Assembly: GCA_947089425.1 (NCBI GenBank) | Contig: CAMUKG010000010.1 | Location: forward strand, 1-64,000 | Length of the DNA stretch: 64,000 nucleotides | Direction of reading: 5' to 3' | Source of the DNA: an uncultured Clostridia bacterium | GTDB lineage: Bacteria; Bacillota; Clostridia; Christensenellales; Pumilibacteraceae | In this document: positions 21,771-24,594 of the stretch, piece after piece | How positions within the stretch are numbered: the stretch's first letter is position 1 | How the letters are laid out: the number at the start of each line of letters is the position of its first letter | The notes under the pieces: model-generated | Databases searched by the model: none | Told to the model about the DNA's origin: nothing | The model's input: the letters and a program-made list of their open reading frames with translations, nothing else | Made by a program: the position numbers and the translations under genes

Positions 21771-21934
21771 AGAATAACATATTCTATGTGCTTTTTCGCG
21801 ATTATTATATATGATTTAAGAGGAAAACGCAAGCAAAACGACGGCGCACAAACAATAATTTACACATATACGACAATTTGCGAACACTTTAAAAGTATTT
21901 AGTTACATAGAATATGTTATTCTATGTGCTTTTT
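21771..21934. repeat. Pair of palindromic 17-bp repeats
   Basis: TATTCTATGTGCTTTTT occurs at 21780-21796 and 21918-21934. Each copy is part of a palindrome: AGAATA-ACA-TATTCT at 21771-21785, and the longer ACATAGAATA-TGT-TATTCTATGT at 21905-21927. The pair flanks the likely promoter of the LRR gene, so these may be operator sites, or small transcript ends. Confidence 0.6.
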
Positions 21935-21963
21935 ATAATAAAACGTTTTTAGCTATTAAATAT

Positions 21964-21992
21964 AAAACGGCGCTCGAAACGAACGCCGTTTT
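21964..21992 (-). terminator. Terminator of copA
   Basis: AAAACGGCG (21964-21972) and CGCCGTTTT (21984-21992) form a 9-bp stem with an A/T-rich tail, 19 bp beyond the copA stop. Confidence 0.75.
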
Positions 21993-22011
21993 ATATTTGT
22001 TTATAAGGCTA

Positions 22012-22215
22012 TTACTCTATCTCCGTAACTTCGTAACCCGCGTCTTGAACCGCTTTTTTCAGTTCGTCGGCGGTTGCCGTGCCGTTATAGTGGGCTATGC
22101 CCGTAGTGTGGTCTACCGCCACTTGCGTGGTGCCGGGCAAGTCGGAAAGCGCTTTTTGCACGCGCGCGGAGCAATGCCCGCAACTCATACCCGATATGTG
22201 CAACGTTTTTTTCAT
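22012..22215 (-). CDS. copZ: CopZ-like copper chaperone made by internal initiation in copA
   Basis: The last 67 codons of the copper ATPase gene form a complete heavy-metal-associated domain (MKKTLHISGMSCGHCSARV…YEVTEIE) with the Cu(I)-binding motif MSCGHC. An ATG at 22215 begins this domain exactly. It is preceded by AAAAGGAGA with 8 nt spacing, a better RBS than that of copA itself. The domain is in frame with copA, with no stop between, so a free chaperone and a fused CopA-CopZ can both be made. Free production is inference from the RBS; the domain identity is clear. Confidence 0.65.
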   Translation of the reverse strand: MKKTLHISGMSCGHCSARVQKALSDLPGTTQVAVDHTTGIAHYNGTATADELKKAVQDAGYEVTEIE

Positions 22216-24594
22216 GTTTATATTCTCCTTTTCTTTTTTATTTTCCTCTTTAATATTTTGCTCTTCGGCTACCTCGCAAGCCGAAGAGCAAGCGAGCTGA
22301 CAAGCGCCGTCCGCTCTCGCGGGCTCTTGCGCGGTTTTATCTGCCTTAAAAAATCTGAGGCGCAACGCGTTTAGCACAACGCAAACGGAGCTCACGCTCA
22401 TTGCGGCGGAGGCAAACATGGGGTTCAGCTTTATTCCCGCCCACACGAACGCACCCGCCGCAAGCGGTATGCACAAAAGATTATAGAAAAACGCCCAAAA
22501 CAAATTTTCTTTTATGTTCTTCACCGTTTTGCGACTAAGTCGCAAAGCCGCTTCGGCGTCGGATAAACGCGATTGCATGAGCACAACGTCGGCGGCTTCG
22601 ATTGCTATGTCGGTTCCCGCGCCGATTGCGATACCCACGTCGGCGGCGGCAAGTGCGGGAGCGTCGTTTATTCCGTCGCCAACCATAGCCACGCATTCGC
22701 CTTTGCTTTTGAGCTCGCTCACGAATTTTTCCTTGTCTTCGGGCAAAACTTCGGCTCTGAATTCTTTTATTCCCGCCTGCGCCGCGATTGCGCTTGCAAC
22801 CGTCTTATTGTCGCCCGTGAGCATATAAACTTTTATGCCGAGTTTTTCGAACTTTTCCACCGCTTTGCGGCTATCCGATTTAACTTCGTCGGCAAGAGCG
22901 AACAGCGCTATAATTTCGCCGTCCGCCGCCAAATACAGCGGCGTTTTTCCGTTCTCGGCAAACTCTTGCGCGCGCTCCGAAAACGAGGCGAACCCGTTCA
23001 TATCTCCGCACAGTTTGGCGTTGCCCGCAACGATTTTTTTGCCGCCTATTACCGCGCTCACTCCGCCGCCCGCAGTCGCTTTAAATTCGTCGCTTTCGAT
23101 AGCCGTGGCGCCGTTACTCAAAGCGTAGGCGCACAATGCCGACGCGAACGGATGCTCGCTGTTCTTTTCGAGCGAATAAATAAGATTGAGCGCACGCGAC
23201 GAGTCGAAAGCCACGAAATCGGTTACGCTCGGTTTGCCCACCGTAACGGTGCCCGTTTTGTCGAGCACTACGGCGGTGACTTTGTGCGCCCGCTCCAACG
23301 CTTCCGCCGTTTTATACAGCACTCCCAAATTCGCGCCGCGCCCCGTGCCCACCATAATAGCGGTGGGAGTGGCAAGCCCGAGCGCGCACGGGCAAGATAT
23401 AACGAGCACCGAAATCGCAATGCCGAGCGCGTAAGCAAAGCTTTTGCCCGCAATTAGCCACGCTACCGCCGCAACAACCGCTATTGCGAGCACTGTGGGC
23501 ACAAAATATGCGCTCACTCTGTCGGCAAGCCGCGCTATGGGCGCCTTAGAACCGCCCGCCTCTTCCACGAGCCGAGCAATTTTGCTAAGCGCCGTGTCTT
23601 CGCCCACAGCCGTAACGCGCACCTCTATAACGCCCTGACGACTGACGGTGCCGCCGGTAACTTTATTGTCTTTTTCTTTTTCGGCGGGCACGCTCTCGCC
23701 CGTAATAGCCGACTCGTCTATGCTCGCGCTTCCTTTCACTATCACGCCGTCGGCGGGCACTCCCATGCCGGGACGCACAAGCACAATATCGCCTATTTTC
23801 AATTCGGACGCGGGGATTTCTTTTTCTCCGTCGCCCGCGAGCAAAACCGCCGTTTTGGGACTGAGGTTCAAAAGCTTTTCAACGGCGTCGCTCGCCTTGC
23901 CCTTCGAGAGCTCTTCGAGGTATTTTCCCACCGATATAAGAGTGAGAATAGTTCCGGCCGACTCGAAATACAAGTCGTGCCCAAACCTCTCGGCAAGAGC
24001 AAAGTTGCCGTGTCCGAGTCCGTATCCTATCGCGAATATCGCCGCAACGCCGTACAATAGAGCCGCGCCCGCGCCGAGAGCTATAAGCGTGTCCATGTTC
24101 GGCGCGCCGCGAAAAATAGCCTTAACGCCGTTTATAAAGAATTTTCCGTTCAAGAGCACTATGGGCAAACAAAGCAGCAGTTGAGAAAAAGCGAAAATCA
24201 AAAGGTTCTCTTTTCCGAGAAATATGCTCGGCAACGGAAGCCCGAACATGTGCCCCATTGAAAGATACATTAAAAGCACCAAAAAGCCGACGCTCACCCA
24301 AAGTCGAATAAGACGATTTCGGCGCTCCTTTTTTCCGCTCGCTTTCTCGGGCTTTGCCGACGCGACTTTGCCGCTCTTTAACTCCGCTCCGTAGCCCGCG
24401 TGTTTCACCGCCGCGATTATATCGTCGGGCGTAACGCTTTCGTCGCATTGCACAACCATATAAGCGCGCAACAAATTCACTGCAACGCTTTTCACGCCGC
24501 TCACTTTGCCTACGCTTTTTTCAACGTGCGCCGAACACGCCGCGCACGTCATTCCGCTTACGTTAAATTCGTATTTCTTCACATTCTTTTCCAT
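22012..24594 (-). CDS. copA: Copper-exporting P1B ATPase with C-terminal CopZ domain
   Basis: An 860-residue Cu(I)-exporting P-type ATPase. The N-terminal metal-binding domain has SGMTCAACSAHV (near residue 13). Eight TM segments are expected, with the CPC ion site SCPCALGLATP in TM6. Also present are TGES, phosphorylation site DKTGTVTVG, nucleotide-domain HP (NSEHPFASAL), hinge GDGINDAPALAAADVG and TM8 MSVSSVCVVLNALRL. Unusually, the protein does not end after TM8. A Cys-rich linker (CQLACSSACEVAEEQ) and a Lys/Glu linker lead into a second, CopZ-like metal-binding domain. The upstream RBS at 24594 is weak (AAAGAAAC). No CsoR or CopY repressor is adjacent. It is downstream of the yccF-like gene on the same strand. 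Confidence 0.93.
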   Translation of the reverse strand: MEKNVKKYEFNVSGMTCAACSAHVEKSVGKVSGVKSVAVNLLRAYMVVQCDESVTPDDIIAAVKHAGYGAELKSGKVASAKPEKASGKKERRNRLIRLWVSVGFLVLLMYLSMGHMFGLPLPSIFLGKENLLIFAFSQLLLCLPIVLLNGKFFINGVKAIFRGAPNMDTLIALGAGAALLYGVAAIFAIGYGLGHGNFALAERFGHDLYFESAGTILTLISVGKYLEELSKGKASDAVEKLLNLSPKTAVLLAGDGEKEIPASELKIGDIVLVRPGMGVPADGVIVKGSASIDESAITGESVPAEKEKDNKVTGGTVSRQGVIEVRVTAVGEDTALSKIARLVEEAGGSKAPIARLADRVSAYFVPTVLAIAVVAAVAWLIAGKSFAYALGIAISVLVISCPCALGLATPTAIMVGTGRGANLGVLYKTAEALERAHKVTAVVLDKTGTVTVGKPSVTDFVAFDSSRALNLIYSLEKNSEHPFASALCAYALSNGATAIESDEFKATAGGGVSAVIGGKKIVAGNAKLCGDMNGFASFSERAQEFAENGKTPLYLAADGEIIALFALADEVKSDSRKAVEKFEKLGIKVYMLTGDNKTVASAIAAQAGIKEFRAEVLPEDKEKFVSELKSKGECVAMVGDGINDAPALAAADVGIAIGAGTDIAIEAADVVLMQSRLSDAEAALRLSRKTVKNIKENLFWAFFYNLLCIPLAAGAFVWAGIKLNPMFASAAMSVSSVCVVLNALRLRFFKADKTAQEPARADGACQLACSSACEVAEEQNIKEENKKEKENINMKKTLHISGMSCGHCSARVQKALSDLPGTTQVAVDHTTGIAHYNGTATADELKKAVQDAGYEVTEIE

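Follow-up and report, generated by a model that had tools for sequence, protein, structure and literature searches.

A putative copper chaperone gene nested in frame within copA of an uncultured Clostridia bacterium, with an internal start conserved among relatives

Introduction

Copper pumps and copper chaperones are joined, separated and co-produced in different ways among prokaryotes. In Archaeoglobus fulgidus, CopZ exists as a protein of its own with an Fe-S domain fused to it, and the C-terminal domain of CopA has reportedly been studied as a tethered domain; in Escherichia coli, translation of copA is truncated after the N-terminal metal-binding domain. According to the passages of PMC7558416 and PMC10187127 that cite Meydan 2017 (Mol Cell) and Drees 2017 (Mol Microbiol), programmed ribosomal frameshifting within E. 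coli copA yields both CopA and a free copper chaperone. The A. fulgidus CopA carries metal-binding domains at both its N and C termini, as stated where Agarwal 2010 is cited in PMC7558416 and where these domains are discussed in PMC11970713. Internal in-frame products are described for Cas11, which arises within the large subunit gene of type I-B and I-D systems (PMC11899642, PMC10327210), and for RpnS, which arises within rpn genes (PMC10327210).

Here, a copA gene is described in a 64,000-nucleotide stretch of DNA (the whole stretch analyzed, hereafter the window) from an uncultured member of the Clostridia. Judged from sequence comparisons, this gene very probably holds a maintained in-frame nested gene, so that both a CopA-CopZ fusion and a free CopZ would be produced. 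No description of a start inside copA turned up in searches of the open literature, although one may exist elsewhere.

The copA frame and its C-terminal CopZ domain

The gene (22012..24594, minus strand) consists of a single frame of 860 codons read from 24594 to 22012 and closed by TAA, and encodes a predicted 860-aa Cu(I)-exporting P1B-type ATPase with, in order, an HMA domain, the ATPase, a linker and a C-terminal CopZ domain. The product matches the Pfam E1-E2 ATPase and Hydrolase families and contains two HMA domains, located by profile search at residues 10-68 (N-terminal) and at window positions 22206-22030. It scores 586.5 bits against TIGR01511 (copper-translocating P-type ATPase; cut-off 397) and 633.4 bits against the E. 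coli-type CopA equivalog NF007952, which is below the cut-off of 1316. The translation includes ISCPCALG, with the CPC motif of the membrane helix, as well as DKTGT and VGDGINDAPAL (GDGINDAP). The locus belongs to the Pumilibacteraceae (Clostridia), and the nearest named relative, Pumilibacter muris, shares 79% identity over the tail.

The ATPase core ends at approximately residue 751 and is followed by a linker (22216..22341, minus strand) with a Lys/Glu-rich end. The first-pass annotation had proposed that a C-x3-C-x3-C cluster in this linker may bind copper. The cluster is indeed present, as CQLACSSAC in a Cys-rich stretch (22262-22310), whereas its role as a copper site finds little support: among 233 linkers, the C-x3-C-x3-C pattern is shared by 2, cysteines are absent from 152, and a Cys pair at a spacing of 2-3 occurs in 35 (~15%). 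The cluster is not conserved and is at most a lineage-specific extra.

The 67-aa predicted chaperone encoded by the nested frame (22012..22215, minus strand) begins M-KKTLHISGMSCGHCS and carries a CxxC metal site (GMSCGHC), whose cysteines C12 and C15 are invariant in 23 sequences. That copA ends in a full CopZ domain, as the same annotation had claimed, is borne out by a PF00403 HMA match of 58.1 bits (cut-off 24.8) and by an AlphaFold2 model (pLDDT 91) in which strand-helix-strand-strand-helix-strand spans the full length, so that the free-standing product is predicted to form a whole ferredoxin-like fold; the top PDB match of this model in Foldseek is the CopZ metallochaperone 6ff2 (TM 0.90). 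The product covers positions 2 to 61 of the 62 in NF047957 (CopZ family metallochaperone). Its score of 73.5 bits is below the cut-off of 85, and it is therefore not a formal member of that equivalog; scores for NF033794 (55 vs 95 bits) and NF033795 (54 vs 91 bits) are also below the cut-offs. Judged from the model coverage and the whole predicted fold together, the internal ATG coincides exactly with the expected beginning of a stand-alone CopZ.

The internal start at this locus

The proposed start codon (ATG, 22213..22215, minus strand) is preceded by a Shine-Dalgarno (SD) sequence, AAAAGGAGA (22224..22232, minus strand), which is read as E-K-E-N in the fused protein; both are found at the same place in relatives. 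The spacing is 8 nt, the frame is that of copA and no stop codon lies between the two (minus-strand junction GAA AAG GAG AAT ATA AAC ATG AAA AAA ACG), just as first described. AGGAG located 9 nt upstream of an ATG is uncommon genome-wide, with 76 matches in 1.94 Mb that are presumably mostly ordinary gene starts, and its occurrence at the copA/CopZ boundary is more than chance. Nevertheless, since the amino acids at this site are alike within the same genus, this locus alone proves little.

The start of copA itself (AATAAAGAAAC-ATG; AATAAAGAAACATGG) is preceded by no evident SD, in contrast to the good SD of the internal start. Free CopZ may thus outnumber the pump here, and such an excess is plausible in this genome. 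Averaged over 142 relatives, the SD of the internal start is stronger than that of the copA start (-9.4 vs -8.1 kcal/mol), though not always, being the stronger one in 85 of them.

In the proposed mechanism, ribosomes initiating at 24594 would produce the pump with its CopZ domain tethered at the C terminus, while others would bind the internal SD (22232-22224) and start at 22215, yielding a soluble 67-aa CopZ, with no frameshift needed. If stable, the free protein would bring cytosolic Cu(I) to the HMA domain or the entry site of the pump, and the tethered copy may also bind copper. Alternatively, a short transcript begun inside copA might give rise to free CopZ through the same internal start, as in the rpn genes of E. 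coli, where a promoter inside the gene is combined with a start inside the frame (PMC10327210), and the title of Drees 2017 refers to differential transcripts for E. coli copA. Such a transcript is considered unlikely here. A consensus scan (a weak method limited to one promoter type) of the coding strand in the window detected nothing resembling a sigma-70 site ahead of the start. Moreover, this reading shares the translation start and leaves the claim about the protein unchanged.

Conservation of the internal start among relatives

Searches covered the order (347 genomes, of which 153 gave a match), the phylum (398 genomes) and additional named genomes, and yielded 286 loci, of which 270 unique loci could be classified. 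Inclusion of the linker peptide among the queries introduces a slight bias in amino acids and none in codon choice or phase. In the largest comparison, comprising 233 single-fusion loci in which one CopZ domain follows the ATPase and no separate copZ lies alongside, 206 have an ATG with an SD at the start of the CopZ domain; 187 of these SDs have a strong core (AGGAG, GGAGG, AAGGA, GAGGT etc.), and the other 19 were accepted on a pairing energy of at most -6 kcal/mol. Three further loci have GTG with an SD at the same place.

Among the genera sampled, 102 have C-terminal CopZ fusions, which named isolates carry as well. The internal start is present at all loci in 82 genera, at some in 4 and at none in 16 (86/102 with a start), and spans 46 family codes or names overall. 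Among the named carriers are Acetatifactor muris DSM 23669, Lachnospiraceae bacterium 28-4, Tyzzerella sp. An114, Pectinatus cerevisiiphilus DSM 20467 (Negativicutes) and Anaerococcus sp. (Tissierellia). The fusion was originally thought possibly frozen, with both forms kept; instead, most lineages actively maintain the start, and some have lost it.

In the remaining 24 of the 233 single-fusion loci, no convincing internal start was detected even when GTG was allowed, and no adjacent substitute copZ was found, which implies that the free form is dispensable or otherwise supplied in some lineages. Full compensation, in which every start-less fusion would be matched by another copZ, is not borne out: a next-door copZ accompanies only 5 start-less single fusions, and the others have only distant, weaker HMA proteins.

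Separate, split and tandem copZ arrangements

Six loci combine a fused CopZ domain with a separate copZ directly downstream. In five of them, belonging to two genera, ATG and SD are missing from the fused domain but both present at the separate gene (Fisher p = 2e-4 relative to the 206/233, with kinship ignored). The internal start is hence absent in most cases in which a separate copZ adjoins the fusion.

Relatives in which copZ is separate, a comparison suggested at the outset, mostly have an SD before the stand-alone gene. In one split relative (L163), the copZ start overlaps the copA stop (ATGA), with the SD AAAGGAGGG upstream. Fused, overlapping and separate arrangements therefore intergrade, and the count of changes gives no direction to these conversions.

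CopA proteins with two tandem C-terminal HMA domains were observed at six loci. A strong SD with ATG precedes the last domain in three of the six and the first domain in none.

Evidence for selection on the nucleotide sequence

Selection on the internal start could not be proven from a single locus; at the level of sequence, it is proven by 132 related order-level fusions that carry an ATG. Of these, 90.9% have a strong SD ahead of the ATG, compared with 33.5% after synonymous recoding with each gene's own codon usage (paired Wilcoxon p = 2e-22, a plain value inflated by kinship because loci within one clade are not independent, which makes codon-phase changes and genus counts the safer figures). 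Only 1.8% of 2580 other in-frame ATGs of the same genes have a strong SD, and the proportion falls to 2-5% when the window is shifted 9-12 nt off the internal ATG.

The linker is variable among relatives, ranging from 7 to 140 residues without conserved sequence, and contains 24% Lys+Glu. Within it, the SD occurs in all three codon phases, encoding Lys-Glu (AAG GAG) and similar pairs at 111 loci, Gly-Gly/Gly-Glu/Gly-Asp (GGA Gxx) at 55 and Arg-Ser/Arg-Arg (AGG AGx) at 22, and the ATPase tree (FastTree; many weak branches) implies a minimum of 32 switches between phases. Because different amino acids are used in the three phases and the phase has changed so often, the selection is on nucleotides; a constraint at the protein level would not give such a pattern. 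The predicted mRNA is also more open at the internal SD, with a mean unpaired probability of 0.66 vs 0.38 at control ATGs.

These data bear on the view that the C-terminal HMA domain, as in Archaeoglobus CopA, only binds metal in a tethered, regulatory role, and that the SD-like string is an accident of the Lys/Glu linker. Purine-rich codons in such linkers do favor SD-like strings, as the one-third of recoded sequences with a strong SD attests, and some fused domains lack any start. However, an accidental origin fits neither the observed frequency, the sharp peak in position exactly at the ATG and the scarcity of SDs at control ATGs nor the three codon phases and the loss of the start beside a separate copZ. 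Chance formation of the SD from a Lys/Glu-rich linker is ruled out by recoding, position profile and codon phases, and the tethered-only explanation as a whole is very improbable.

Proteolysis of the flexible linker, with the ATG unused, might release any free CopZ, since the linkers are long, hydrophilic and variable and hence potentially cleavable; yet cleavage would account neither for the conservation of SD, ATG and spacing nor for the open mRNA, and this route deserves even less credence. That a sequencing or assembly error erased a stop codon between separate genes, an alternative raised in the first-pass annotation and recalling the adjacent separate copA and copZ of some relatives, is excluded for practical purposes by open fusions at over 230 independent loci, some of them in isolate genomes.

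The proposal that free CopZ arises by internal initiation is thus strongly supported by several comparisons, namely the conserved SD and ATG, conservation at the nucleotide level, loss beside a separate copZ and predicted openness of the mRNA. More broadly, it is likely that nested copZ, retained across Clostridia, Negativicutes and Tissierellia through selection on its ribosome-binding site, is the main or only source of free chaperone in these bacteria, and that the two starts compete on a single mRNA and so determine the ratio of tethered to free forms.

Genomic context

Directly after the stop codon shared by copA and copZ lies a predicted intrinsic terminator (21955..21998, minus strand; -25.8 kcal/mol, z = -8.1), composed of a hairpin followed by a U-rich tail. 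Between this terminator and the next gene, a perfect palindrome, CATAGAATA-TGT-TATTCTATG (21906-21926), was observed. Only one other near-copy exists genome-wide, and the palindrome is a possible operator. A CsoR-like repressor frame was noticed by eye after the fused copA-copZ stop in several relatives, and none adjoining copA was seen in the window.

Only three HMA domains were found in the genome, two in copA and one of the Zn/Cd type (DLDCANC) before another ATPase; no separate copper-type copZ was found in this 94%-complete assembly. This Zn/Cd-type HMA domain is a separate 72-aa protein beginning MKKVYKVEDLDCANCAAK, encoded on contig C22 of the same genome (C22:18203-18420; L003:1493-1710). 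Its stop overlaps the ATG of the following heavy-metal ATPase (ATGA), with the N-terminal metal-binding domain forming a gene of its own that is probably coupled.

Comparison with known systems

If the proposed internal initiation is true, the production of a pump plus a chaperone from one copA would have been reached by a second route, in a different phylum and at the opposite end of the gene, and a large, well-conserved family would be added to the few known bacterial genes-within-genes. Annotation limited to long frames would miss nested genes such as copZ in copA. In addition, the natural losses, splits and duplications of this arrangement offer a direct way to test what the tethered and the free CopZ each do.

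Archaeoglobus CopA resembles the fused protein in having an HMA-type domain at both termini, but its C-terminal domain is treated as tethered, and CopZ is separate and has an Fe-S domain. The copZ-copA operons of Bacillota, exemplified by Bacillus subtilis CopZ (PDB 1k0v, 2qif), involve the same two protein families and the same expected copper route; they use two open frames, whereas a single frame with a nested start is found here. E. coli likewise derives both products, pump and free copper chaperone, from a single copA, although by a frameshift that gives an N-terminal product, in contrast to the second in-frame start, C-terminal domain and different phylum of the present case. Mechanistically, the closest systems are Cas11 and RpnS, in which an internal ribosome-binding site and an in-frame start produce a separate C-terminal-domain protein that works with the full-length one. 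Those examples come from CRISPR effector complexes and nuclease toxins, while the nested gene described here would encode a metallochaperone for which a separate-gene version exists in relatives.
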